DNA of 64,000 bases from Dryococelus australis. Lineage: Eukaryota; Arthropoda; Insecta; Phasmatodea; Phasmatidae. Below, in pieces: positions 4,741 to 58,724 of this stretch; position 1 is the stretch's first letter, and each line of letters begins with the position of its first letter. A program made the position numbers and the translations under genes. The notes below the pieces were generated by a model. The model saw only the letters and a list, made by a program, of their open reading frames with translations, had not been told where the DNA came from and searched no databases. Where the stretch lies: positions 223,463,491 to 223,527,490 of the forward strand of contig CM056994.1 in the NCBI GenBank assembly GCA_029891345.1. Reading direction: 5' to 3'.

Positions 4741-7700
4741 GGTAGGCGACACCCTTAACAGGATATCTTCCCCACCTCGTCAACCTTCCTCACGCGACAC
4801 AAGCTGAGCTGGCTCACCAATTGAGTGCATGTTGACGGGCTGTGTTGCCTCCTTGTCACAGAAGCGTGCTGCACGGCCGAGTGCAGCTTCAACTGGCGAG
4901 TTTGACATCTCTAGAGAAATGAATAAAGCTCTTCCTATAGGTATAGATTGCCAAACACTCGGACTTCCTTAGAAAGTGAGGAACATTTCGTGTGCATCTT
5001 GAATTATGCAAGATGAAAGAAACGGGGAGGATATGATGGCGGAAGATTCCTTAAAATTCATCTCATTCAATGTAACCACAGCAATAAAATGGACAAAGAA
5101 CAAGTACACTGAACGAGTGGACGAATCTAGGTGAATTTGAACTGGGCATTACGCAGATATTTAAAGAACCTCAATTAACCGTTGGAGCTGGAGGGGGGGG
5201 GGGGGGGGTGGCTCCTCTGTTGCAAGTTACTGACATAAGCTTTTCATAAAATGCCCCAGTTATTGGTGTTTACACAGTAAAAAGTATTTCTTAAATAGTG
5301 CTTCAAAGCAATGTACATGAGAGTTTAATAAAACAGATGATAACAGCCACCTCAAATTAATACTCTTTTGTAAACCACAGTGGCCACGAAAACGGGTATC
5401 ATCGAACCAAATACTCGACTGCTGTTGTATTCACAGATTCACGGACAGGAAGGAAGTGGGAGTAGTGTACTACGCTATTTGTGAAATGGACACAGCCATT
5501 GCAATAGCATATGAATGGAAACATATTTTTATTGTACGGGCGTAGAAATATTATTGGAATTTGTATGTATGCTGCATAAAATCGTAACGTATATTAACTA
5601 ACATTTCGAAGTGACCTTAACGCCCATGGTAAAATCAGCAGCCGAGTAATTATCCTTAGGCTTTTCAGGAGCTATTCACTAAGAAGTTTGATTGCCTTGC
5701 CTTGCACGCTACTGACCGTAGCTTAGTTCTGCCATGGGAGGGGGTTTTGGCTCACTGCTGACCCTAACATGTTCGTAAAACGGCAGTTTTTTTTTTTGCG
5801 ATTGAGGTTCATTCTCACGTGAAAATTGCATAAAGGAGAAGAAAAGTTTGGAAAATGGTTATCAATTAAAAATTCCTTTTCACTTTCAGTAATACGAAAT
5901 AAATTACTATCATTGTGACGAACAGATTATGTTGTATGTTCAAGATATCTTTTTAAGGTGCTGCAAATATGATATAGTCCTATTTAACTGTTTTTGGTTA
6001 TTGAATCTGCTCATAATAAAAATTGTTTCCATTTTATATGCAATGGTAATTACTTTCTTTGCTTTTCGATATACTTAACTAACAAATAAATAAACGTCAA
6101 ATATATTAAAGAAATCACACTATTATTTTACATATAGCAATCACAGATGACGCAAAGATTAATAAAACAAGTTTTTAAACATTTACGCATTTTTCTTGAA
6201 TTAATGCCTAAAGTCTTCATTCTTAAATACATTTTATTACATAAAATATTTTCAATGTAATCGGCTGTATAAAAGAAAAAAAAATTACAAATGAAATTAA
6301 ATATTCGTAATACATCTGGCGACTGGACAATATATCCTAAATATATATTCCAAAATTCTATATTCCTAAGATTTATGTTGTTTGTAGTGCAAATTTACTT
6401 TCCAGCGCACGCATTTGCGTTTTATCTTTACAGACTGTGAAATAAAATGACAATTGATAAGCTAATGTATTATATTTTATCGTCTGAGTAATTGTTAATA
6501 TCTTTGTTTGTAAAATTTCGTGGGATGTGCTGTACTTGTAAAACTGGCAGTATGTTTAAGGCGTGCGTGATTTTTTTTGTTTGGCCCAAGACGATACAAA
6601 ACATTTTGGAGCACTATTTGTTATGGGACGAGAATTAATATCAGAATATTTCAGGTTTGCTGTACACTGCTTATTTGTTAATCATGCAATATAGTTATTT
6701 TCTGGTGTTCATGCATACAACAGCGATATCAAGAAGGCCATAATGCTGTGTTGACAAATATACTATCGTTAACCTTTCTATTTATGAGAATTCCTTAACA
6801 ACAGTGCGTAGTGCACGATGGTGGTGTTAAGAGATCCAGTGTGTGTAAGCTACTGACCTTAATTGCCAAAAGTTACTGAATAGACGACCAGGAGTTGATA
6901 TTAGGTAATTTAAGTACGTGTGTTAATTAGATTGGTGTGGCTATTTTTAATGGGAATAAGGCGAAAGGGATGAACCGAGGATATTGAATGTCTTCACGCC
7001 GAGTCAGAAGTAAGGGAATGGAAACCGTTATCTCATGGTACCAAAGGAGAGAAATCTTCTCAACCCAATGTCCACGAGGCGAGCTAACCACGCTTCCAGC
7101 GGATTTGTGAAGTGAGCCCCCCACTGATATAATTAAATACTAACTTCACTAATCTAAATGTTAGTAGTGTAAAGTGTCACACATGAAGACCATGTCCATA
7201 TAAGAATTGGGTAAGTTTCATGAAAATGAAATAAACCTTTGTGAAGACTCGGAAGACAGAGGTATGTCTAAATCCAGAGTCACGCGGGGTTGGCTATTTC
7301 AGCTTCTCTTGATTAGTTGGCTGGTGGTGGAAGGCCGGTACGAGGATTCGATGGGACGCGATACGCAACGACGTAGTCCAACTCCTCTACGGCTCCGTTC
7401 CTAATCAGTCGAACGATTCGAAGGGCATTCATAGTTTAGTTGGCATTTGGAAGCACGTATAGTTGCGGTCATTTTATGCGCACGGAACGGGACTTGTAAT
7501 TAATCAGCAGCTATAGACACGAGTGACATGATAAAGAGTTAGTTGTCGGGCCTGACTACATGACACTGGACGAAACTCTCTGCCCGGAGTCACAAGAAAC
7601 TGACTTCAGTTGTTTTGTTTTGAATTAGAACCCGAAAAACAAACACTGCCTGTGAAATATCAACTGAAACTGTACGAGCAACGTAATGGCGACAGAGCAA

Positions 7701-15310: not shown

Positions 15311-16973
15311 AAAACAGCTCGAGGTACCTAGAAAAAAGTAAAATGTTGGAACAACAGTATTACTGTTACTACAACAGAAAATCTTTTGTTATCTGTGACA
15401 TTAAGTGCGTTTGTAACATCACCTCCGTACTTTTCTGTAAACCTTAAGGTGGTGTTTATGTTGCGGCAAAACAAATTTTGTGTTGAATTGATGTTAACAT
15501 TTATGTTAAAAAATTTTCTTGAGTTTTCTTTGCTTTAAAAATACATTCCGATGTAAAATAAATTAACTACAATTATTTTGTCACAAAAGAAATGTTACCA
15601 ACGAAAAAAAAAACGAAGGCTGGGAGGGGAACCGAACACGCACACTCATTACTTGATGTTCTATACTTTACGAAACCAGACAACCTTCTAACAGCTCTAT
15701 CTTATGTCTGATTAGAAATAAATTTACCACAATATAATCGAAAAAAGAAATGTCTCAATAGTAGTTTTTTTATTGCAAGAGCATTATACTTTTTTTATGT
15801 GTAGGCGAGGCCCTTAAGAGAGGGATAGACCCCCGCGCCTAAGGTCAAGATGCGAGGAAGCGATACGGTCGACAATAACAAGTACGCCTAGTGCTTCATC
15901 GCTCCTACGCGCAAGGCGTGCAGTGTTTCCGTCGTAACGCTGTACTGTGCAAATTCGATCTGTAACAGTGGTGTTTTATTACACGCGATGAAAGACCACA
16001 GATTAATCTACGCCCGTATATTTGTACTTTTCTCTTGCCGCTTAAGTTAACTGCGTAGGCAAGCTTTAAAAATGCAATATTTGATCATTTTCACGATTTT
16101 TTTTCTCGAAGAATACATTTAGTATAATAAAAGTTAAAAAAAAATAGGGCATAGAAAATTGTTTGTTAATTTTTATGACAAAAAGTCGTATTTGCAGAAC
16201 ATTTATTTACCGAGATATGCGTATTTCCGCAAACAACTATTTCACAAAAATGCAGGGGTCCATCCCATTCTTAAACTTCAAAATCGGTACGTTTGAAATG
16301 TCCTACTGGGACCCAGCCGATTTGAAAGTGAAGTAATTAACGCCCTCTTTAGTTGCTCTTTAGCTACGATCGAGTAGTGTAGCAATGAAATGTCGATGTG
16401 GCACTTCAGTGCTCATAAATGTCCCTCGTTACCATATCTGAGGTCTGCTTACACACACTGACAACTCGAGCACACAGCCACCTAGCTGGCGTACATCCTG
16501 CCTGCATTTCCCGTGTTTGTGGTCGCGCCATCATATCGCGTTGCTCGCAGCGACGGGCGGCGGGGGACCCCCCCCCCCCCAACACAATCAAATTTGCCAT
16601 TCCGATATTCCGCGTAAACCGCTCGGATCAAACATCCCGTGTCAATACGATTGCACAACAAAGCAGGCGGAACAACGCCCCTAGTTTTTTTTCTCCCGGA
16701 TGTTATTTGATCGTGAATGCGAGGAAAGGGCAAATGTTGTGTGGAACTTCTTTACCAGAATAACCTGTGAACTTATGTCAGCGTGAAAATAACGTATATG
16801 TTCATTCCAGCAAAACGATACAGAGAGAGATAGAGACTGGGAATATATCTATAATTCAACTTTAAGTTAAGAGTAGAGGGACTTTGCAAAATGTTTTACG
16901 AGTATTGGCTACATTTTTGAATGATTTTGTTGTATGTTGTATGAATTTATAGTACAACAGTTGCGTAACGAAT
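15311..16973. other. Stretch without supported genes
   Basis: A GC-richer patch at about 16420-16720 carries overlapping frames on both strands (16419-16763 plus, 16406-16600 and 16482-16733 minus) and a C homopolymer at about 16568-16580. No domain is recognisable and the frames overlap each other, so I do not call a gene. The rest is AT-rich. Confidence 0.4.
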
Positions 16974-17153
16974 GTTTTAGCACAAGCTAGGGCATGAGAT
17001 ATTAGTGTTGTTTTAGCACAAGCTAGGGCATGAGATATTAATGTTGTTTTAGCACAAGCTAGGGCATGAGATATTAATGTTGTTTTAGCACAAGCTAGGG
17101 CATGAGATATTAATGCTGTTTTAGCACAAGCTAGGGCATGAGATATTAATGCT
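16974..17153. repeat. 36-bp minisatellite, five near-identical copies
   Basis: The unit is GTTTTAGCACAAGCTAGGGC followed by ATGAGATATTAATGTT, repeated five times with only 1-2 substitutions per unit. The period is a multiple of three and lacks stops in one minus-strand frame, so 16862-17182 reads as a 12-residue repeat (ISHALACAKTTL). I interpret this as a young tandem duplication, not a protein. Confidence 0.95.
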
Positions 17154-18694
17154 GTTTTTTTACGTGCAGTTGATATAAGCATAGAACTTGTTATTTATAG
17201 TCACGAAAATCCAATGAACTTATTTCGGTTGAGCAAGCTAAGTTTTTATTAGGAAAGATGTAAAATCATATGGATTTCATACTTGTTATAAGTAGCCTAA
17301 GTAATAAAGATGAGTACTTATTTAAATAGTAGAATTCAAATTTACCTGAACGTGCTAGTTTGATCCCCTCTTTTGCTGTGAATATTTATTTAATGTTTGA
17401 GATTAATGAGATCTCCAAAATGAAACAACTCCAAATGCGTTTTAACTTCCGATAGAAACATAAGCAGAATCTTCAAATTAGGCATTAGGCAGTTTTGGTG
17501 TTGGGAACATCTAAACTTTGAATATTGTAATTATTAATACGCGAAACAAACATTTCGAGAAAATACCTACCCAGAGACAAACACTGAAGTTAAAACAATG
17601 ATCGTGAGTGCATACACTCAAACTATTTTTAATTCAACTTTAAAAGTATATGTAAACGAGACTTTAATATCATGCATTACATGCATAATAAACGTGGTAA
17701 TAAACTGTTAGCACGTTCCTAAAAAAATAAACAAACTAGACTCGTACATCTTTTTTTACAGAGTTTGCATTTTTTCCCCAACGGAAGAAAAATGAATAAC
17801 TGAATGCGATGTTCCGTCTAGAAAAAATTGGTTTGTTGATTGTAGAGACACGTTACAATACAATTATTTAGGGTGACTTTCAGAAGTTGCAATTAGCATT
17901 CAAGAAACCACAAAAATGTAGAATATACAAGCAGCCAGGATAGAAGGGGAATGAAAGAGCTTTGACAAATTGACAGTTAGAAAATAACCCAGAAAGCCCG
18001 AAGTAAACTGTATGGGATAAGGTGTCTAATCAGATGAACTGCAAGTAGAGAAAACCAATTGAAAGAAGAGAGGTTTATCGCATCATGTTCGAGAAGAGTG
18101 AACTGACAATATTGGCGAAGAGAATCACCCAAGAGAGCGAGGCGCGTTCACGCCAACACAGCACAACGAAAGAAATATATATTTGTGTTCCGAAAATAAA
18201 TCAAGATGCGCCTGACCAGAGCAAGGAATGATGCAAGCTCAAATATAAGGTACCTCTATTTGTAGTCCGTGTAGCAGTGTTTCACGTCCCGTATTTTGTG
18301 TTTTCCTCCGATTCCGGGTTTTTGGTATATCCATGAATACATGTTCACCAAGCTATTGGTGAACATTCCGTTTGTAATTGTAAAGTTTGATAATTATACT
18401 TTATTTTATTAACAAGGTTTTCGATGTTCTAATTGTAAAAAAAAAAAATGATATGAGTTTATGTAGTGGTATTCTGTTAAAGGTCCGTTTTCTTGTTAAT
18501 ACTGCATGGCAGTTTTAGAATACTGAACGATGGCATACCTGTTGCTCTTTCTAGCCAAACTGTTTTCAACATTATTGCACTATCTGGAAAGGTAACTGCC
18601 TGGAAATATTAACGTTTCAGATTTTTCTCATTTATATGTACTAACCTTTTATATTTTCATGAGGCATAATGTGTGAAGGATTTTCAACGTTTAA
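17154..18694. other. Stretch without supported genes
   Basis: AT-rich sequence with no domain-bearing frame and no repeat family shared with the rest of the window. Confidence 0.4.
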
Positions 18695-18911
18695 TGGGGC
18701 CGCGGTATCTAGTGGACAGACTATTACCTCCCACCAAGGCGAACCGGCGTTGATTCCCGGTGTGGTTATCGCCAGATGCCGCTGTTTGGTGGATTTTCTC
18801 GGGGTTCTCTCGTTTCCCTATCCTTGCATTCCGGCGCAGCTTCATACTCACCCCGCTTGACCCTCATCGGTTCTCAATGCCTCGATATTAAGAGTCGTCC
18901 AAATCGCTTCA
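18695..18911 (+). repeat. tRNA-derived SINE family B
   Basis: The head GGGGCCGCGGTATCTAGTGG carries an A-box-like segment. GTTGATTCCCGG is a degraded B box. The body (GCCGCTGTTTGGTGGATTTTC, CTTGCATTCCGGCGC, CATACTCACC, CATCGGTTCTCAA, AAGAGTCGTCCAAAT) is shared with copies at 30729, 40636, 49788 (minus) and 58351. Such elements are transcribed by RNA polymerase III and moved by a LINE. It lies immediately upstream of the nested mariner/foldback structure. Confidence 0.85.
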
Positions 18912-19905
18912 CTTACACACACTCTTCGAGCAACAAGTTGGTACTGGGGTTCTAAGCTCACTGTAATCACATTTCCGCAAAACCATGTTACATAAAATCC
19001 TAACCGGAAATTATTATTTTTTATTTCCCGCCGGTGAATGCTATATACTGGTTGTCCGAAATTGTCTACACTCCTTGTACATTAATAACAGAGTAACTGT
19101 TTAAAACAATCTAATGGGATTATGTGTATTTGACACTGCAAGGACAATGTTGGAGATGTGCGAGCACGTGTAGCCATTATGAGATCATGATTGAAGTGGA
19201 GAGATGATGGAAGGCAGTGTTCGTTACTGCAATAATAAAATGTTTAACAATGAAACGAGTAGATGGGAAATGACAGATCTGGAGAACTGGCGTCCTCTCA
19301 GAAAGCCAGGAGCCATGGCGGCAATCTTGGATGATGTCACACTGAAATCTCCGGCTCTTTCATTCCTCGTCAGCAGCATACATCTTGATTTTCCCTTGGC
19401 GTTTCCCTTTTTCCCCTCTGAATTTCCCTTTTTCTTTATCCCCGACTTCCTGCTCTATAATTTCACCTTGTCTCTTCATGTTCTTGCATTCAGACTTTTA
19501 TCATGCTCTCTCATTCCTTCTTGCCTCTCTTCCACACCCATTCTCGCTTGTCTACTCTATTCCTTGGTTCTCATATTCCTTCTGATCTCCTATTTTCTCT
19601 CTTGCCTTGTATTCTGCCATACATTCACCCCTCTCTTGGGTTTTACATCCTCCACCTTTAATTCCCGCACCTACCGCCAGCCGTCTGCTGTAGGTGGCCG
19701 TATTTGATTCATACACCCCCCACTAGAATGTGATAAATTCTACCATTCGCAGCTAGGAATACTGGTATCGATGCGGTCATCTTGTTCGTGTTGGTCCACT
19801 CGTCGCCTGCAGGGGCGCTCTAGCATCGGGGCATATAGTTCAAACGGAGGTCGCTAGGAGTGCTGGATTTTTTCTTTAGTTGGTGGTTGTTTCGGAACTC
19901 AAAAA

Positions 19906-25797: not shown

Positions 25798-26318
25798 CTG
25801 CGTGTTCACATATGTTAAATGAGATAATTAAATTTTTGAAGAAAAGACTGGCGAGGGCTGCAGAAATAATATTTTTACGTAATGGACGCTAAACGCGTAC
25901 AAAGCGGTCCAAGGCCGTCGCAGAACGTCTAGAGTTATTAGACGGTGTTTAGCACGATGCTGTGTGGTTAACGCTGGTGCCAGCAGTTCTTAAGAGCTTT
26001 GACCACGGAGAAATGTTATCCTATTATATAATAGGACGATCTCTGCCTGGTGGTCTGTCCGCCTTTAATACTTCAAATTCCCTTGAAACTCGACAGAAGT
26101 TCTTCAAATTTTGCAGGGCCAATCCTCAGAGCAAAATACAGGCCAAGTTCGAATTTCAGCAAGATCAGATTACGCAATCATTACCGTTTACCTTAAAAAC
26201 TAATTTTTTAATTACTTTTTTCGTATGAAAGTTTTGTATTAATGCATAGAGATTATTGCATAAAGATATGAAGGAACTGGAATATAATTTTTGTTTACTT
26301 TAAATGTCTCGCTTCAAT
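23838..26318. other. Stretch without supported genes
   Basis: It contains a G run (about 24579-24589) and the (GA)n block at 25722-25796. Short frames such as 25962-26228 show no family motif. Confidence 0.4.
25722..25796. repeat. (GA)n microsatellite
   Basis: About 75 bp of AG/GA dinucleotides with two GG interruptions. It accounts for the RERERE open frame at 25677-25892. Confidence 0.95.
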
Positions 26319-26502
26319 GTTGAGTTAATTTCCAAGTGGGGCCACAGTGGCTGAGTGGATAGAGCGATTCCAAGTGGGGCCACAGTGGCCAAGTGGATAT
26401 ATAGATATCAAATGGGGTTTTAGTGGCTCAGTGGATAGAGCGATTCCAAGTGGGGCCACAGTGGCTTAGTGAATAGAACTAGATCCAACGTTGAGTTAAT
26501 TT
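26319..26502 (+). mobile_element. Four tandem SINE heads flanked by a 13-bp target-site duplication
   Basis: GTTGAGTTAATTT at 26319-26331 is repeated exactly at 26490-26502. Between them lie four head-to-tail units of 37-39 bp: CCAAGTGGGGCCACAGTGG, then CTGAGTGGATAGAGCGATT, and variants (one has GGGGTTTTAGTGGCTCAG, the last is shortened). GTGGCTCAGTGGATAGAGCG is a classic tRNA-type A-box region; no B box or SINE body is present. The duplication indicates that the array integrated as a single retroposition product. Confidence 0.8.
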
Positions 26503-28041
26503 CACATAATTCTTTTTCAGTCTTTGTATGATAAAAATTTGTAACATCGTAGGCACGTGACAATACTAAAAAAAAAAAAAAAGCCAGGGGCTGGGCCCCT
26601 AGTTTTATATAAATGTACCACGTAGTAGTCTACTGCTCAGCTTTTGGAAACTGTAAGTAAATATACTCCCCCCCCCCCCCTTACCAACAAAATAAATTAA
26701 GAGCATAGTTATCGCAAATACATATCAAAATCTCAATTTTGCTGTTCCAGAAATGTACAAATAATTCAAACTATTCTTGGTGCAGAAATGAGATAATTCA
26801 CGCTGAAATAATATCCCCAGAGCTGCTTCATGGCGTTTATAAAACCGTACAATGGGATGTTTTTGCAATTTAATAAAAAATTGCTGAAAAAAATTTAAGT
26901 TTTTGATTTGTGGCTGCCTCTGAATTTTTGTAAAAAAAAAAAATAATAATACGATAACCATACCTTAAAATCAACTAAACAAGACCTTTCCGTTGCCTCT
27001 ATACAATGTCCTGCAAATAGTCTGGTTAATTTTATTTGTTCATTATAAAAACTGTAAAAATGTTACTTTGACATGTCATTTTGAAAAAAACTATGAAATT
27101 TATAAAATTATCTGAAAAAAAAATTGTTAAAGATAATGTCTACAAGCTGTGGTACAAGTATAAAACTACGAATTCTTGTGGGGCCAACGCCCTTAATCAG
27201 AAACAAACACGAGGCCTGCTGAATGCACTTCCAAATGGAAGAGTAAAGGCCGATTCACATTGAAGTTGGAGCTATTTGCTTTAACTTACAGATAGAACAG
27301 CGGTGTACTCAAATTGAATTAATAGCGAAGTATACATAAATTTTCCATCCGAGAAGTTTATCCAACATCAATATAACGTAAAGGTAACGTAGTGTTCGTT
27401 GGCCAGTCTGGATTAATTTTTATTCCTGCCAACTGCATTATCATTTGTATATTATGCAACGATTGTAACATACATTGGAGTAAAGCTAAATTCATGTTTG
27501 TTTTAATGATAAATAAATTAACGATTTGATGAGCTCTGGATTGAAAGGATACCTTTAATTGCAAATTGGCGGCACTCTATGTAAAACATGAGAATTATTG
27601 GCACGTCGAGGAAAACGTTTTATATATTGTAACAACTGCTGATATGTACGTTAAATTACAAACTAACCTTTTATTTTCAGACCATACGTGCGATTTGGCA
27701 GTAGTGAATTACCACTTATCAACGATGACCCTTGCCTAAGGCTCGATCTCATCCGCCATGTTGAATTTTCAATTTATGTACCATTTCTTTGCAATGAAAT
27801 ACCTTAATATTTCTTCTTTTGGTATATTACATTTCACAAATGCCTACAAATGTAGTCACCAAATTTTATCAATGCCTTAGCTGGTAATGATAAAATGGTG
27901 AGAATTTATTTGTAATTTAAATGTGATGTTACAATAAATTAGTCATAACTATGTAACAATAGTTTATTATTTATGTTTGTTCTGGAACGTTTTAGTTTCA
28001 AAATAAGTGTTCCCGAACAACTGAAATAGGGTAAAAATCAG
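26503..28041. other. Stretch without supported genes
   Basis: A-rich tracts (26568-26582), a C run (26669-26680) and AT-rich sequence. No domain-bearing frame. Confidence 0.4.
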
Positions 28042-30728: not shown

Positions 30729-30995
30729 GTGCACAGGGGTTAGAGCCCTCGCCTCCCACTAAGACAACCGGGTTCGATTCCCGGTGGTTTAGCTCCCGGA
30801 TTTTCGCGTGTGGGAAGCGTGTCGGATGATGCCGCTGGTTGGCGGGTTTTCTCGGGGGTCTCCCGTGTTTCCTCCGCCCTTGCATTCCGCCATCGCTCCA
30901 TACTCGCCTCGCTTCACCCACGTCGGATCGACTGTCCAAACCTCTCCACTGCCTCGTCGTGGGGAAACTATAGCAATGCAACCACAAGACGCCGT
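30729..30995 (+). repeat. tRNA-derived SINE family B
   Basis: A perfect B box (GGGTTCGATTCCCGG) is followed by the family body GATGCCGCTGGTTGGCGGG, TTTTCTCGGGGGTCTCCCGT and CTTGCATTCCGCC. The head (CAGGGGTTAGAGCCCTCGCC) is preceded by a G homopolymer. The best-preserved B box among the family B copies here. It explains the opposing open frames at 30556-30987 and 30808-31022. Confidence 0.85.
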
Positions 30996-33300: not shown

Positions 33301-33389
33301 AATGGGGGATAACATCATGGAGCACGAGGTGAGGTGTCGTTGATGCTTGTCTTGCAGATGACCGATCGTAATCTTCACAACACTATCCC

Positions 33390-34620
33390 GAGGTTTCGAA
33401 GGATCAACTTGCGTCACCTGCCGCATCTACTTTGCAGAAAGATTTATTACCTTCTGATCATCGCCAAACGACTGTGTCATTGTACAGTAGGACATTTCTG
33501 GGATCGTACATTGTCTTTGTCGAAAGTATAGACAAGAATATCGGTAATATTCATCCTGTGTCTGTAGGGAAGAAACTGCACGGATTATCTAAGGACATCA
33601 TACAAATTCAAAGGGCGGGTCCAAATCGCCTTGAACTGATTATGAAAACGGCGCAGGCCACCAATGATATACTTACACATGCTCATCTTAGCCAACATCA
33701 ATTGAAAGGGACCATTCCACTTTGCCTTCTACAAAGGCAAGGCCTTATATATGGAATCACATTGGATCTATCAGAACAAGAAATCTTTGATGGTATTGAA
33801 ACTCCATATGGATTACTTAAAGTAGAACGAATGTCCAAACGTTTTTATGGATCCAATGAAACAGTTTACCGACCCACCAAACTTATTGCTGTAACCTTTT
33901 CGGGTTAACTATTACTCGACAGAGTCTTGGTTTACAAACACCTATACAGTGTTAAACTTAAGATCCAATCAGTTATTATGTGCAATAAGTGTCACCGTTT
34001 TGGGCACACTGGGAAGAATTGTTGCAGTACAAAAAGCAGTTGCCCTGCTTGTGCAGGTGACCATCAGATTTCGGAATGCACGGCGGAAATGCCTTCTTGT
34101 CCCAATTGCCGTGGTTCTCATTTGGCTACGGATAGAGAGAAGTGCCCCCATTGGATCCTTGAACAGAAAGTAAAACAAACAATGGCTACACTCAATTTAG
34201 GTTATTCTGCAGCGAAGAGGAAGGTTCTTGATAAGTTCAAAAATCTTCAAGATACAGATGGTGATTTATTACATTCTGCATGTCCTGGGACTAAGGACTA
34301 CTGTACCCTCTTTCCTGACAGGATCCCGGTATGTGGAAGAGAAAATCCTGGCGTACCTTGTTAATCACCTCCGATTGCTGTCCCCACATCTGCCACTTAT
34401 GCTGATTGTGTTAAAACCTTTGCCAAACGCCAGTTAGAAGATACTGGGAAAACCCCTGCTGCAAAGGCTATCGTTTTGCAACGCCCAACAAAACTGCATG
34501 TTGATCATCGTATCTTGCCTCCTCAACAATCTTCGAAGTCAATATCTGTGGCCCAATACTTTTCTCAGTTTAATCCTGTTGGTGAACACACCGGTAATGG
34601 GATAGTCCTCCGTCGAGTTT
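33390..34620 (+). pseudogene. LINE ORF1 (gag-like nucleic-acid-binding protein), broken
   Basis: The first open part (33432-33908) ends with YRPTKLIAVTFSG, the region preceding the knuckles in I-type gag proteins. A stop and frame change follow. The next open part (33927-34364) contains CNKCHRFGHTGKNC, CPACAGDHQISEC and CPNCRGSHLATDREKC (33981-34145), three CCHC zinc knuckles that bind element RNA. A further frame change lies near the 3' end. In the family, ORF1 coats the RNA to form the retrotransposition particle; that role is inferred from the family. Confidence 0.8.
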
Positions 34621-34847
34621 AAGACCACTCTGTACAGGGACCACCGGCTGTGGCGCGTTCTTCCTAAGATAACCCTTCGACCAGCTATACTGCTTTCTAT
34701 GATATTCTCTTAAAATTAATCGCATTAATGGATCCCCCATGCTACAAGGTAACCCTGTCTTGCAGGAAGTTGTCACCGAGGTGAAGAGGATTGTTAGTGA
34801 TACAGTAAGCAGCTCTTAGTTTTCTGTTCCTTTATATATCTCCTATC

Positions 34848-37800
34848 ATGAGAATACTAAAGTGGAATTGTCGGTCTTTGTCACTTCAATGAGGACTTCA
34901 ACTGAAGTATCTTTGTACCACACCAGCTGATGTTATACTGCTACAAGAAACGCACTGGCACTTTGCAGCTAACCAACAAGGTCTCTTTTCTAGGTATACA
35001 GTGTATCATATTGCTCCACTGAATAAACATGGTGTAGCCATACTTTTCAACACTGTCATATACTCGGTGGAATTATAGGTTTCCAACTTGCCTGATAATG
35101 TTGAGGCAGTTGCGGCTAAGGTTGTCTTCGATGGCGTCGAATTGGCTCTACTTTCCATTTATGCTCCACCACAGCATGCTACCAGTACTTTTTCCTGGGA
35201 CAGACTGCTTGGGGCATGCAATCATAGTCCCATAATAGGAGATGATTTTAATGCTCATCATACATTGTGGGGTGATGTGAGGTGTGATTTGGCTGGGAAG
35301 AATCTGGCAGAATATATTGACACCTCGCCGTATGTGTTATTGAATGATAGCAGTTCTACCTATGTGGGAGCTTATGATAAACACAGCTCTGCCATTGATC
35401 TCACACTGTGTACTCCCAGACTTGCAATGGACTTCACTTGGGCCGTGCTTACTGATGCTATGGGTAGTGATCATTTTCCCATTGAACTAGTTAGTCAGGA
35501 TATGGGTACAACTACTCTTCTTACTCATCCTGATTTGCAGCCCTTGTGGTACTCCTGCTATAATTACCAGCGCACCTCATGGCAGGCATATCGTGAACAT
35601 ATAGTACATTATATAAGCTCCCCCACTATCTTGGGTGGTGATGTCCAAACTATGTATGATTACTTTCAGAATTTGGTCACATCATCCATGTGGCCGCTGT
35701 GCCACATAAGTCTTCTTGGTCTGGACTCCGTAAACCATATTGTGAATGGTGGACTTCTTCTTGTACGTCCCTTAATGCAGATCGACGTCTGGCCTTCCGC
35801 ACATACAAACAGCATAGTACGAAGACAAATTTTTTTACTCTATCTGGAGGTACAAGCTCGTTTTAAGTTGACTCAAAACTGCGAAGAAGGATCACTGGCA
35901 GTCTTACTGTCAACAGTTTTCCTGTGTTACCCCTTCGGGGGAAGTCTGGAAGGTCATCTGTTCTCTACGACAATGCTCATCCTCTCCTCGATCCGGAAGT
36001 TTGGGATACTCCACTCTGACTGCTATCTATAAATGTTTTTCTCCTGATTATGTCCCAACCTATGATGAATCTCCTTGTTCTCATTCGGCATCTGCACCTA
36101 ACCCCAAGAGACGACCTGCTAAGGATACTGCTATCTTGATGTCTGAAATCAGCATTGCAGAATATCGTCACTCTCTTCGTGATGGATGGAAATCACCAGG
36201 ACTAGATGGGATTACATATCAGCATGTGTGGGAGCTTCCACAGGAAGGCCATCACCTGTTACTTTGTATCTTCAATGGTATATTGCTACATCAGGTAATT
36301 CCTACTCAATGGCAGGAACACATCATTTTGCCCATTTTCAAGACTGGTAAAGATGTAACATTAGCTACATCCTACAGACCTATCACGTCTTGTGTAAACA
36401 AATTCTTTGAGAATATTTTGAAGAAGAGGATGGAATGATGGTTGGAGACTAATCACCTCTTACGCAGGGAACAATTTGGCTTTTGTAAAGGAAGGACCTC
36501 TCTGGATGCTATTACAGTATAGATAAAATGGGCTAAGGACACGTTTACTAGCAATGGTGTTTTATGTGCATGTTTCTTGATATTCACTCTGCATTTGATA
36601 CAGTAAACATTCCTGTACTTTTGCACAAATTAGCTCAGATAGGGCTGCCACTGTGTCTCGTTCGTATCTTCAAGGCTCTCCTTCAAATTAGGATCACTTA
36701 CCTTAAAACAGACACTTATATTACACTTGGAAGGTTGGTGTATCAAGGCACCCCACAAGGTGGTGTTCTTAGTCCTCTTTTGTACCTTATATGCCCTCAA
36801 GATCTTATTTTCAATCTTGGCCCATTTGTTCAACTTATTAGTTATGCTGATGATGTTGTCTTGTTTTATTTGTCCTTCGCTGTTAGTGATGTGGTATCAG
36901 TTATGAATGATGCCCTCCAACATCTTGGCACCTGACTTTGTTCTCATTGTCTAACACCATCAGTTCACAAAACTAAGGCTATGCTGTTTACTAGAAAATG
37001 TATTGACTAGTCACAGATCCATCTGCTTCTTTGCAATACACCTTTAGAGGTCTACTTATTTGGGCATCGTTCTTGACTCTACTCTTTCTTGGGTGGATCA
37101 GGTAACTCATCTTACTGTGAAGATACATCAAATGTTTCAGTTGTTGAAAATGCGTGGACACACTGCCTAGCGTGGTGATCCTCATACACTGTTACTGTTT
37201 TAGCGAACATTTATTTGGGCCAAGATGAATTATGGTAGTGTTTTTATGACTTAATTGTGTGATACTACCCTCACAATATTACAGCTTTTACAAAATGCCT
37301 GTCTACATTTATGTCTAGGGGCACTGCAGTCCACACCCTTTGGGGGCACTTCATGTTGAGGTGAATATACCACCATATGGCCTACATAGAAGGATGTTGG
37401 CTCACAAATTCTGGATCAAGGCAAATTATTTTCATGAATCTCCTCTCCATACCATTATAAATTGTATTGGTATTGGTGTTCTTGGTTGTTCTTTGCAATA
37501 TCGCCTGCTTTTACCTTGTGTGAAGCGCATTTCTGTCTATATGGTGGACTTTCCTGTGCTTTTTTATACATGTAAGGTGGAACGTTTATTTACAGAATGC
37601 AAATGCTGCATGAGTGGTGGAGAAGTTCATGCGCTATACCGGCAGTGTCTGAGCCAATATCCCAACTTTCTCCACATATATATTGATTGATCGAAATCCC
37701 TATATGCAGTTGGTTGTGCCTACTATATTCCTGCATACAAATCGTCTGGTTTATTTAAGTTATCATCTTCCGATTCTATATTTTATGCTGAAGCATATGC

Positions 37801-38387
37801 TATCGTAAAAGCACTGGAGTATGTATTGCCGGACTATATCAGCCAAAAATCTCTGCATATTTACAGATTCTAACAGTGTTGTCACTGCTCTTGCCTCTCT
37901 CCACTGTCATTGTCAACCAGATGATATTATCTTACAGATTAAGCATCTTATCTAGACTATTGAGATCATGGGTGCTATGGTTGTGATTGTTTTGCTTCCG
38001 AGTCATGTGGGTATACCCGCCAACGACATGGCTAATAAACTGGCAAAACTGGCTTCTGACACAGGGATGCCGATTACTGCTCCAAATCTGGATATGTTAA
38101 TTACAATTTCCAAACGTCACCTTCGTGGTATTTGGGAAACCCAGTGGCAAGAATGTGAGGTTGCACCGTCCTACAAGAATATCCAACCGCACTTACAAAC
38201 ACAAACATGGTTTAGTGGAAAAGCAAGGAAAAAACTTTATTTCACTGTTATTATCTGCCCGAGGCTAAATCATAAAAATTGTAATGTTCATCTTCACAAG
38301 TTAAATCTGGCCGAATCACCTAATTGTCATTGCAGGGATGGTGCGCAAACTATTAGTCACATTCTATTTCATTGTCGTCAAATGTAA
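34848..38387 (+). pseudogene. LINE ORF2 (endonuclease, reverse transcriptase, RNase H), broken
   Basis: The start ATG at 34848 gives MRILKWNCRSL, the usual beginning of the AP endonuclease. It is followed by ILLQETHW (34935 area), GDDFNAHHTLWG (35238 area; the family usually has GGDFNAHH), SAIDLTLCTP and GSDHFP. RT motifs are GWKSPGLDGITYQHV, LDIHSAFDTV (about 36577), GTPQGGVLSP (36747-36776) and the catalytic YADD (36843-36854). RNase H pieces are YID.SK (37676 area), FYAEAYAIVKALEYV, FTDSNSVVTALA (frameshifted) and LPSHVGIPANDMANKLAK (37993 area). The C-terminus has a CHCRDGAQTISH..FHC motif. In-frame stops interrupt the endonuclease (about 34893 and 35076), RT (36436, 36520) and RNase H (37687), and several frame changes occur. 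Confidence 0.85.
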
Positions 38388-38582: not shown

Positions 38583-40199
38583 TGAATCCATACCATTGAT
38601 CTGTCTGTAGCGATACTCGGCTGAAGCTGTATTCGAAACATCATAATATGGCGTGATCTTTTGTCTCTGCCTTGATTTGTATTATTATCATGTGTTACGT
38701 CTCCCACATCAGTGTTGTTCCAGTCTCTGTGGAGGAAGGTTGTACATCTCACTCCGACACGGCTACTTGTCTGTGAAGTGGGCAAAATGGCGTACCTAAC
38801 TTCTACGTCTCACCAGGTGAAATTGTTAAGTCTTATAATGACTTAACTGTCAGTGTTGTTCCGATTTTCGTAACTGATGGATATCTGTGACCTACTGCGG
38901 CAAGAAACGAGTTTGTTTACGTCAAATTATCGGTTGGGTATTTTTCCTCCCCTTCTAATACGGGTAGAAAACTGATTTCGTCATGGCTGTACGGAAACTA
39001 AGGCCCGAAAAGACAGAACTGAACTCAACTGCAGTGGTGTGGCGACATGACAATGACACGATGTGTTTCTGAACGAAGCGTCAAGTTCATACTCGTGTTT
39101 TTTAAATATCCTAGGGAAGTTACAATGTTGTGATAAATATGTTTCCATGACAGGGATAATTAATATACTGAAACGAGTGTTGTGATCGCCGCATGTGCAA
39201 GGGCGTAGCCGCAATTTCCGACTATGGTGACTGTGTTGTAATCGTTGCGCAGGCCAGATGTGTGTGGATTTCAAATATGTGCAAAGTTTATACGTTTTAA
39301 CTATGAACTGATGCTATGACGAAGTTAATTATTTATATTTACGTCTGTTTATCACAACATTGTACCTTCGCGCTATTTGTTTGAAACACAGTTGTGTAAT
39401 GAGCTTATGTTTCTGTGATTAGAATTTTTGCCACAATCACAAAAAAATACTAAGCCCATCCAGATAAATTTAAATAAATAATAAAATAAACCTACAAGCC
39501 AGTAAGTGTTAGTGCATGCAAATATTAGCGGAATAAATGTTACAGTAGGCCTATGTGTTTGCATGTTCATCAGTATATTTTACATTTGTCGATGCTACGT
39601 ACAATAAATAAGCGACACGCGATGCGTGCTTGAGTTTACTGCGTCGTTTCGTTGGACTGATTGTCCCTTCGTTTTAATTTTTATTCCAAACACATTAATA
39701 ACAACAGGTTAAATACTACTGTGTTTCCGCCACAGTTGTAACAAACACCGTCGTGGCTAAATATTAATATGCATTATGTGTAAAGTGCTATATCGTGTGT
39801 AACAAATAGTTGTAAAGCCGACCTAAATATTGTTATAGGCCTAAATTGTGAACATTCGTAGGAAATATGACAGCATTCTTTGAACAGCTATAAAACAGCA
39901 ACCAACGCATTTGACAGTTATAAAAGTAGAAGTCACACGACAGTGTGTGTGTTTACGTGTAGCGGAAGGATACGTAATCAGTAACCAAAGGTAAAAATTT
40001 GGCAGGGCTTCAGGAAAAGGCCGAAGTTATCGTGAATCAACTGTAGTAAAATGCTGAGCCACCGTGACAGAATAGATGATGATGCTGGGCCTGGGATGCC
40101 ACTGGATTCCAGAGAGTAAATTCCTCTGCAAACGGAAAATTATTTCTCGCGAGTCTGCATGTAATGAGCTTCGCTTGCTGCTGGATGTGTTCGCACACT
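38583..40199. other. Stretch without supported genes
   Basis: Several frames of 65-97 codons (38552-38785 minus, 38981-39274 minus, 39373-39570 minus) lack any family motif. No repeat family shared with the rest of the window was found. Confidence 0.4.
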
Positions 40200-49168: not shown

Positions 49169-49795
49169 CCCGTAAGTAGTGATGGGATCCTCGATAACGC
49201 GACACCTCGATACCCTCGAAACTTTATAGTATCGAGTATCGCATGATATCCAAAAGTATCGAATTTCAACACCCATTTTCTCGTGTCATATATGGTACGA
49301 GCGTACCATAAAATTTGGAATGCATTCGATACTTTCAAAAAGTGTACCATAGCTGTTCTTAACATCCCTTTTCTTGTGCCATAACTATGGAACAAGCGTA
49401 CCATACCTTTCGGAATGTGTAGTATACTTTCGAAAAGCATACCATAATTTAATCTGCGTCCTTCGAGCATTCCAACGCACCCATAAAATTTGACCTATGT
49501 CAAACGGTTCGCAAGATATTAACAGCAACTTTTAAATGCGTACCATAATGATCTCTGCTGGTAGCAAGCATTCCAAAGGTTTATCATTGATTAAGGACGT
49601 TTAGGTTACAGGTCAGTGTGTGTCTACGACACTAGTAAAATGAGCAATTTTCTTGTTCAAGTTGTCTTGTGTTCATAACAATTTTAATTTGGTATAGAGA
49701 AAAGTATCGGTATCGAGTATCGTGAGAATGTTTTGGTTTCGAAACTGGAATCGAGTATCGAGAAAATGTGTTATCGACCCATCCCTACTCTTAAG
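49169..49795. mobile_element. hAT-like non-autonomous element
   Basis: The left end is TAGTGATGGGATCCTCGATA and the reverse complement of the right end is TAGGGATGGGTCGATAAC. Both sides then carry CTCGATAC/GTATCGAG blocks. TAG(G/T)GATGGG termini are typical of many hAT elements, which make 8-bp duplications. The candidate flanking octamers CCCGTAAG (49169-49176) and CTCTTAAG (49788-49795) agree at six of eight positions. Inside, 49272-49463 is a two-unit tandem repeat of about 100 bp with GAGCGTACCATA and AAGCGTACCATA blocks. No transposase. The right flank is the 3' end of a SINE. Confidence 0.65.
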
Positions 49796-50004
49796 AGCCG
49801 ATGAGGGTAAAGTGAGGTAAGTATGTAGCAGCGCCGGATTGCAAGAGTGGAGGAAACGAGAGATTTCCAAGAAAACCCGTTGGCCAGCGGCATCGTCCGG
49901 AACGATTCTCACGTGCGAATATCTGGGAGCGACTCCGCCGGGAGTCGGGCCAGTTTCACTTAGGTGGAGGCTGAGTAGTCTGACTACCACACCACCGCGG
50001 CCTT
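49788..50004 (-). repeat. tRNA-derived SINE family B (minus strand)
   Basis: Read on the minus strand: a GGCCGCGGTGGTGTGGTAGT head, GGCCCGACTCCCGG as a degraded B box, then GATGCCGCTGGCCAACGGG, CTTGCAATCCGGCGCTG, CATACTTACCTCA and CATCGGCTCTTAAGAG. It is full length by comparison with the 58351 copy. Its 3' end abuts the hAT-like element. Confidence 0.85.
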
Positions 50005-50042: not shown

Positions 50043-50159
50043 AGGTTTAAAACATTACTTCCACTAAAAACGCGAGTTTATAGGTTTAAAACATTATTTC
50101 CACTAAGAACGCGAGTTTATAGGTTTGAAACATTACTTCCACTAAGAACGTGAGTTTAT
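50043..50159. repeat. 39-bp minisatellite, three copies
   Basis: The unit is AGGTTTAAAACATTACTTCC followed by ACTAARAACGCGAGTTTAT, repeated three times with 2-3 substitutions between units. Confidence 0.95.
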
Positions 50160-50808
50160 ATGAAGTTACGCACTATTTTTAAAAAGTTCTCCATAATCTT
50201 ATGAGAAGAGGAGCTTTCGTTTCCCATACATCTTTTGAGCGGAAATTAAGCATTAAAAAGTTTTTATTTATAGACAGCTTTCTTCAGTATCCGAAGCTAC
50301 GCCAAGTTATCTAGCTATCTCAGACCATACAACGGGAGGAAGCTGCCGGGCGATGCAATAATTCTTAATTTTAAATTCGTTATAAACAATCTATTAGAAT
50401 CTATGAAAAATAACATTACTTGTAGTTTCATACTTTTTATGCCAGCTCCTTGAATGTAATATTTTAATAATATTTTGATATCATAAACGTGTTAGGAAAG
50501 GTTCCTCATAGTCAGTGGCGTGTAGCGAGTTTTTTTTTATTTTACAGGGCAAGCAATTTCTACTAACAAACGCAACTTCCAACTTTGCTTACCCTCCACA
50601 TGTATTTACCGTTTTATAATACCAAACATTAGTTATAGCAATGGAAACGAAATGAACGTAATAATAATCAAATTGAATATAATTCAGAGAGCATATTACA
50701 AATGATAAGAAACGTTTTCTCGAACACTTTCATTCACTTTTCAAGGAAAAATGTAGGACTGAAGGACGCAAACAGAACGACTGCTTACCCTGCCGAAGGG
50801 TACTACTT

Positions 50809-57363: not shown

Positions 57364-57581
57364 TCAGAGTTTCGGGCCGACCTCCCGTGGTGCAGTTGGT
57401 AGGTGTGTCGCCGGTTTGGGGCGCGGGAAGTTCTGGGTTCGAATCAGGCCTGGGTGTTAGTTTAAGTTATGTTATAAGTTAGTTTATGAGCCGTCCCCTC
57501 ATGAGCCTTCAGGCATAAAAACGGGGGACGTTAATAAGCCCTTTCCAGTCCAATGCAATTCCAATCCAATCAGAGTCTCGG
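57364..57581 (+). repeat. tRNA-derived SINE family A with target-site duplication
   Basis: The head is GCCGACCTCCCGTGGTGCAG then TTGGTAGG (A box), followed by TGGGTTCGAATCAGG (B box). The body has GAGCCGTCCCCTCATGAGCC and AAAAACGGGGGACG. The tail consists of CCAATGCAATTCCAATCC-type repeats. TCAGAGTTTCGG (57364-57375) and TCAGAGTCTCGG (57570-57581) flank it, matching at 11 of 12 positions. Confidence 0.9.
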
Positions 57582-58205: not shown

Positions 58206-58580
58206 TGTACAAATTTTAATAAGTTTTTTTTTTTTTTTTTAACAAAAGCTTTGTTATTAGCCAAAGTGTTTATTGAAGTCACGTAAGTGGCATGTTGCAT
58301 TTTTTAAACTTCTAACAGATTTGGCTTTAAATGTTATATTGAAAGATAAAGGGCTGCAGTGCTGTAGTGTTCACACTACTTGCCTCCCATCTAGGCGAAC
58401 CGGGTTAGATACCCCGTGGGGACTCTTCCAGATTTTCGTACTTGGGAATCGTGGTCGGCGCGTTTTCTCGGGGATCTTCAGTTTCCCCCGCCATTACATT
58501 CCGGCGTTGTTTCATACTCATCTCACTTCACCCCCATCGGTTCTCAAGACCGCAATGTTAAGAGCCGCCCAAATTTCTCC
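58206..58580 (+). repeat. T tract followed by a SINE family B copy
   Basis: A long T run (about 58225-58241) is followed about 110 bp later by the SINE at 58351-58580. The SINE reads GGCTGCAGTGCTGTAGTG, CCGGGTTAGATACCCCG (degraded B box), TTTTCTCGGGGATC, CATTACATTCCGGCG, CATCGGTTCTCAAG and AAGAGCCGCCCAAATTTCTC. It explains the two overlapping frames at 58273-58689 and 58416-58604. Confidence 0.85.
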
Positions 58581-58724
58581 AGTCTCCACTACATCGAAAC
58601 GTAAATTATTGAAATACAGGCCGACCGCAAAAATTAATTTCCAAGAAATATCCTGCATTGCTTTCCAATACCGCGAGCAATTATTTTAAGCTGTAGCCTA
58701 CTAGCCTACCCTATTAATTTGATT

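Follow-up and report, generated by a model that had tools for sequence, protein, structure and literature searches.

Background

Helitrons with tandem repeats of variable number at their centre are established (PMC10048060, PMC7348941, PMC2374699), and elements of the DINE-1 and HINE type have been described from Drosophila, mites and mosquitoes (PMC2374699, PMC4067079). A canonical Helitron, as characterized in PMC4067079, starts with TC, ends with CTRR and is inserted between A and T. It makes no target-site duplication of its own and carries a palindrome of 16-20 nt about 11 bp from its 3' end (PMC4067079). Satellites that derive from the heads of SINEs are likewise on record, in squamates (PMC10702118) and in Hy/Pol III and Xenopus Satellite 1, which come from tRNA-related regions of SINEs (PMC9659126). 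Variable-repeat Helitrons and SINE-head satellites are each already known.

Here we describe a locus in a 64-kb stretch of the Dryococelus australis genome, referred to below as "the window", in which four short tandem units resembling the head of a SINE lie between two copies of a direct repeat. The initial annotation of this DNA read the locus as a multimer of SINE heads that had integrated here as one unit.

Results

The sequence GTTGAGTTAATTT has only two exact occurrences in the window, both on the plus strand, at 26319 and 26490; the minus strand has none. The initial annotation was correct that an exact duplication flanks four tandem units, and the exact direct repeat is 14 bp long (GTTGAGTTAATTTC, 26319-26332 and 26490-26503). 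Identity is 17 of 18 positions when 26315-26332 is compared with 26486-26503, and the sole mismatch is a private change of the right copy. The array between these 18 bp repeats is 153 nt long (26333-26485) and consists of units of 38, 38, 38 and 39 nt; Tandem Repeats Finder reports a period of 38 and 3.9 copies. Pairs of random window positions with this spacing (39,698 in all) never had more than 12 identical bases in common, and an exact flanking repeat of more than 6 bp was found at none of the eight other tandem arrays tested there. Single units fold no better than shuffled sequences, unit 2 excepted. The whole array folds better than shuffles (z = -3.85), as repeats with inverted parts do. 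The features of the locus are listed below (slashes mark the boundaries of the element).

26018..26603, plus strand: host bases A (26018) and T (26603) bordering the element, from a comparison of the ends of 40 copies
26019..26602, plus strand: non-autonomous Helitron-like element carrying the array; 584 bp, arms common to dispersed copies, A/TC...CTAG/T
26019..26036, plus strand: 5' end of the element, with TC start and short palindrome, from the sequence; DNA fold -3.7 kcal/mol, z = -3.18
26315..26332, plus strand: left-hand occurrence of the 18 bp internal repeat, CAATGTTGAGTTAATTTC; occurs across the family and is identical to the family consensus
26333..26370, plus strand: unit 1, 38 nt
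26371..26408, plus strand: unit 2, 38 nt
26409..26446, plus strand: unit 3, with TTTTAG against CCTTAG in the consensus of the other four-unit copies
26447..26485, plus strand: unit 4, 39 nt
26486..26503, plus strand: right-hand occurrence of the 18 bp internal repeat; a single T to C change (CAAC) is private to it
26586..26602, plus strand: 3' end of the element, with a 6 bp hairpin (26586-26591 with 26595-26600) and terminal CTAG (26599-26602); fold z = -0.87, not stronger than shuffled

Two readings that were based on the window alone were superseded by the search of the genome. In one, the 18 bp repeat was taken for a target-site duplication that arose locally and encloses a whole number of units. 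The other, that the units had diverged before insertion, was put to a test that proved uninformative (P = 0.19 for at most one mismatch in 18, given the divergence of the units).

Other repeats in the window were recorded along the way. Two minisatellites, one of 36 bp in 5.2 copies (98%; 16973-17158) and one of 39 bp in 3.0 copies (93%; 50043-50160), have no flanking repeat longer than 6 bp. A LINE-like element with several broken frames occupies 33372-38387 on the plus strand and encodes an endonuclease domain (PF14529, E = 6e-20) and a reverse transcriptase (PF00078, E = 1.3e-15). Just past it lies an exact 13 bp direct repeat (38709-38721 and 38850-38862, 141 bp apart), which may flank a small insertion or may be due to chance, about 0.3 such pairs being expected per window.

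The array and its flanking repeat belong to a dispersed family

The 3.415 Gb assembly (G000, 646 contigs) was searched with a 184 nt query made up of the array and both flanking repeats. The best 40 of 2387 candidates were scored and all 40 places were fetched (L017-L056, with L017 being the window's own). Among these best 40 of 2387, at least 13 places other than the window match the query from end to end with both repeats. With a tolerance of up to 4 edits, the left repeat motif was found in all 40 copies and its right counterpart in 37 (the right motif is poor in L018). The flanking repeat is part of a dispersed family, a fact that is not visible from the window alone. Twenty evenly spaced stretches of the genome, 200 kb in total, contained no copy with recognisable arms. 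One of the fetched places, L018:993-2470, holds at least three Helitron pieces side by side, one of them inverted; one piece has about nine units and one has two.

The similarity between copies extends outside the repeats for about 300 nt on the left and about 100 nt on the right, and at the outer edges of these two arms the copies end. Allowing up to 10 edits at the 5' end and 7 at the 3' end, we recognised the left boundary (A followed by TCCTATATAATA) in 37 of the 40 copies, 32 of which read A/TC, and the right boundary (GGGCTGGGCCCCTAG followed by T) in 38. CTRR precedes the T in 30 of these 38, in the form CTAG in 28. The window element and the majority of copies therefore have the TC and CTRR ends of a canonical Helitron and its position between A and T; the TT insertion site of the Helentron-type elements DINE-1 and HINE was not found, the flanks being A and T. 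Conserved arms around a central array of variable length are what defines a non-autonomous Helitron bearing tandem repeats, and the family has this layout. The 3' hairpin of the window element is 15 nt long and reaches into the CTAG. We use the label "Helitron-like" because this hairpin is atypical.

Our main conclusion, to which we assign a probability of roughly 0.9, is that a non-autonomous Helitron-like element of the rolling-circle type has this array as its central tandem repeat, and that the whole element arrived at this place with its four units most likely already present. On this reading the array was inherited along with the element, and it can be accounted for without invoking template jumping or several different template RNAs.

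Variation among the units points in the same direction. We aligned 17 four-unit copies, the window included, and compared the window with the other 16. The third unit of the window has TTTTAG at a point where the consensus of these 16 is CCTTAG. In that unit TTA occurs in nine of the 16 (TTTTA in the window) and CTA in one, while the remaining six carry CCGCA, CCACA or CAGCA, so the order of variants is not uniform; in the fourth unit 15 of the 16 have CTTAG. Units 1, 3 and 4 of the window find their best match at their own position in other copies (0.867, 0.852 and 0.861), and unit 2 does not discriminate (0.794 at position 1 against 0.790 at position 2). Most of the unit variation was already present when the element arrived, and the four-unit background from which it came was itself not uniform. 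The differences between units had been tentatively attributed to the copying of several template RNAs; because they recur by position in other copies, that explanation is not needed.

Copies with none, one, two and many units

The number of units between the repeats varies widely. Among the 37 copies with both arms (three of the 40 loci, with a right arm score below 38, are omitted), 17 have four units, six have five, seven have six, one has seven and three have eight, with single copies at nine, 10 and 15; these loci are the best matches to a four-unit query, and the numbers are accordingly biased and do not represent a random sample. Shorter forms were sought with separate queries. A one-unit query matched without interruption over at least 223 of its 232 nt at 27 of the 40 places scored. 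Five of the 27 were fetched and all five have one unit. The initial annotation had named a paralogous copy with one unit between the same duplications as the observation that would speak against it, and these five places are such copies. The unit is shortened to about 29 nt in L085, the right repeat is reduced in L084 and the left repeat in L081. Another locus, L080, has two units between perfect 18 bp repeats.

A query without the array, in which the arms were joined around one repeat, ran straight through at three of 40 scored places. When fetched, these copies (L077, L078 and L079) had both arms and a single repeat and carried no unit; their 3' ends read CTAG/T, except for CTTG/T in L078. 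In an unrooted tree of 41 of the 44 loci, with bootstrap values not settled, the three empty copies group together (100/96) next to copies that bear the array. Because they make up one clade adjoining array-bearing copies, the empty copies may reflect later loss rather than the ancestral state.

At the other extreme, L086:148-1448 (minus strand) contains 21.3 copies, at 98%, of a 61 bp monomer composed of the 18 bp repeat, a head unit and a few bases. Its uniformity makes this look like a recent, derived local array within a Helitron copy.

The units resemble the head of a SINE

Copies of a SINE of about 260 bp, which has a tRNA-like head and a B box, occur in the window and in the evenly spaced stretches (L064:2471-2760 and relatives). 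The first 26 nt of the family unit agree with the copy in L064 at 23 of 26 positions and with six other SINE copies at 19-21 of 25 or 26, whereas the remaining 12 nt agree with SINE copies at only 2-5 of 12. This comparison supports the view, also taken in the initial annotation, that the units carry a SINE head, which would be about 26 nt long. A SINE copy proper would have a head with A and B boxes followed by a body; no B box or body was found in the units. Four more or less complete copies of a SINE with a unit-like head are present in the window, at 18775-18916, 30735-30904 and 58351-58584 on the plus strand and 49789-49942 on the minus strand. A second tRNA-like SINE family, with the head CCGACCTCCCKT...GCAGT and a B box, is found at 57388 (plus) and 28992 (minus) of the window and at L076:9089 (plus).

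The resemblance to tRNA can be traced in several ways. Positions 8-26 of unit 3 are identical to the D arm of a tRNA-Arg gene. The sequence TGGCTNAGTGGATAGAGC occurs in 16 viral contigs, in 13 of them at the D arm of an ARAGORN tRNA prediction (12 tRNA-Arg and one unassigned) and in three without any tRNA call; the 16 include several near-identical contigs (L006, L007, L012 and L015; L009 and L010), so that the independent cases are fewer. D-arm-like motifs number 32 in the window against a mean of 17.9 in shuffles, and matches to the A box number nine against 3.6 expected; a D-arm-like motif also appeared in 491 of 5000 shuffled versions of the array. By themselves, such motifs argue only weakly for a tRNA head. 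Neither ARAGORN nor Rfam found a tRNA in the window, and Rfam found none in the array at E values up to 10. Exact unit patterns had no match in the viral contig collection (viral_contigs) or in genome_contigs. A strict pattern of head plus B box had no match in the insect's own genome, because GGTTAG is what mostly follows the A box in the SINE copies. Duplications were also looked for at the other three candidate SINEs, with no informative outcome.

Units of this kind are not confined to one element. Across 200 kb, both strands included, seven 26-mers reached at least 20 identities; three fall in SINE copies (L060, L064 and L074) and four in units of a second Helitron-like element, two of them in L058 and two in L070. 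Degenerate units lie at about 6060-6135 in L058 (minus strand), with the 3' end of the element near 5985, and at about 975-1125 in L070 (plus strand), with the 3' end near 1330. Both elements end in GCGAACGAAGYCGC...GCTAG/T, a Helitron-like 3' end different from that of the window family. Either the 38 nt units moved between Helitron families or they predate the window family.

Discussion

Viewed in isolation, the locus invites the reading given in the initial annotation, in which a SINE-head multimer, made by template jumping during target-primed reverse transcription or copied from a tandem-head RNA, integrated here and GTTGAGTTAATTT is the resulting target-site duplication. The perfect flanking repeat and the SINE-head content of the units are what that reading predicts, and template jumping by non-LTR reverse transcriptases is a real process (PMC2881922, PMC10499050). 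Retroposition nevertheless calls for a duplication that belongs to the target site and not to an element, and here the same repeat, together with the same arms, flanks the array at many unrelated places. Moreover, copies exist with none, one or two units between the same repeats, and the element's own Helitron-type ends lie outside them. Integration of a multimer at this site, by either route, is thus not supported, and we consider it extremely improbable; the array was inherited with the Helitron-like element.

How the element itself came by the array is a separate question. In the course of events that we favour, an ancestral element without the array would have gained one 38 bp SINE-head fragment and, with it, an 18 bp target-site duplication; copies would then have gained units by local tandem duplication, through slippage, unequal exchange or errors of rolling-circle copying. 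A four-unit version would have spread by transposition, and the window copy would afterwards have decayed by point mutation. The duplication may in this case mark one old insertion of a 38 bp SINE head into the ancestral Helitron. In its most far-reaching form, the proposal is that retroposition placed a single tailless SINE-head fragment of 38 nt in a Helitron, that rolling-circle transposition expanded it into a minisatellite (0, 1, 2 and up to 15 units, or about 21 in the case of a longer unit) and that this passed between two Helitron families; as a complete account we put it forward tentatively and think it unlikely. Another source would be a ready-made array, or a segment from another Helitron family, taken up by the Helitron; recombination, either among the units or between the two repeats, would later have contracted it in the one-unit and zero-unit copies. 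The similar units in the second Helitron-like element (L058 and L070) fit such an uptake, as do the position of the empty copies beside array-bearing ones in the unrooted tree and the single unit of L084, which runs into the shortened right repeat as a recombinant might. A single insertion followed by growth is, on the other hand, the simpler explanation of the tidy 18 bp repeat and the many one-unit copies, and we regard uptake as possible, if on the unlikely side. The 18 bp repeat might also not be a target-site duplication at all, since tandem duplication of one head together with the neighbouring 18 bp of the element would leave a repeat on both sides. Exactly such a monomer of repeat plus unit makes up the long array of L086, but that array, given its uniformity, appears to be a late product, and the scheme requires an older form in which a head stood next to a single repeat. 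We find this origin of the repeat rather doubtful.

Whatever its source, the locus illustrates that perfect duplications around a tandem array can mimic site-specific retroposition when a single locus is read alone. In the family one can read a series, from zero units through one and several to a single long array of uniform units, of the way in which a transposon's central repeat may arise and expand. If a retroposed head was indeed grown by a Helitron, the birth series of a tandem repeat would be preserved in one genome.

We recognised no paper on a Helitron with SINE-head central repeats in the open-access literature searched, and the nearest relatives are systems that share part of its organization. 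Like the DINE-1 and HINE elements, as they are described in the portions of PMC2374699 and PMC4067079 drawn on here, the family is short and non-coding, has a tetranucleotide tract of the CTGT/CCGT type near its 5' end, varies within the species in the number of its central repeats and has a candidate 3' stem-loop. DINE-1 and HINE have a TT insertion site and carry subterminal inverted repeats; the window element ends A/TC...CTAG/T, as canonical Helitrons do. Furthermore, DINE-1 is said to be without tRNA-like or pol III features, while the central repeat here is a SINE head. Oyster Helitrons with Cg170 central repeats (PMC7348941), and satellite-bearing Helitrons generally (PMC10048060), share with the window family the layout of left arm, variable array and right arm, and the occurrence of the same repeat in several elements. 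The Cg170 unit differs from ours in length and sequence, and the passages of PMC7348941 used here do not state that it originated from a SINE head.

For the proposed first insertion of 38 bp, a possible model is provided by tailless retropseudogenes, short fragments of small RNAs that are truncated at the 3' end, lack a tail and are bordered by target-site duplications (PMC5322556). They are described in therian genomes (PMC5322556), whereas the insertion step here is one that we infer. The squamate satellites, Hy/Pol III and Satellite 1 resemble the window array in being tandem repeats of a part of a SINE that includes the tRNA-related head (PMC10702118, PMC9659126). As described in those sources, SINE-derived satellites stand alone or grow from SINE copies; the array in the window, in contrast, is carried inside a Helitron-like element.
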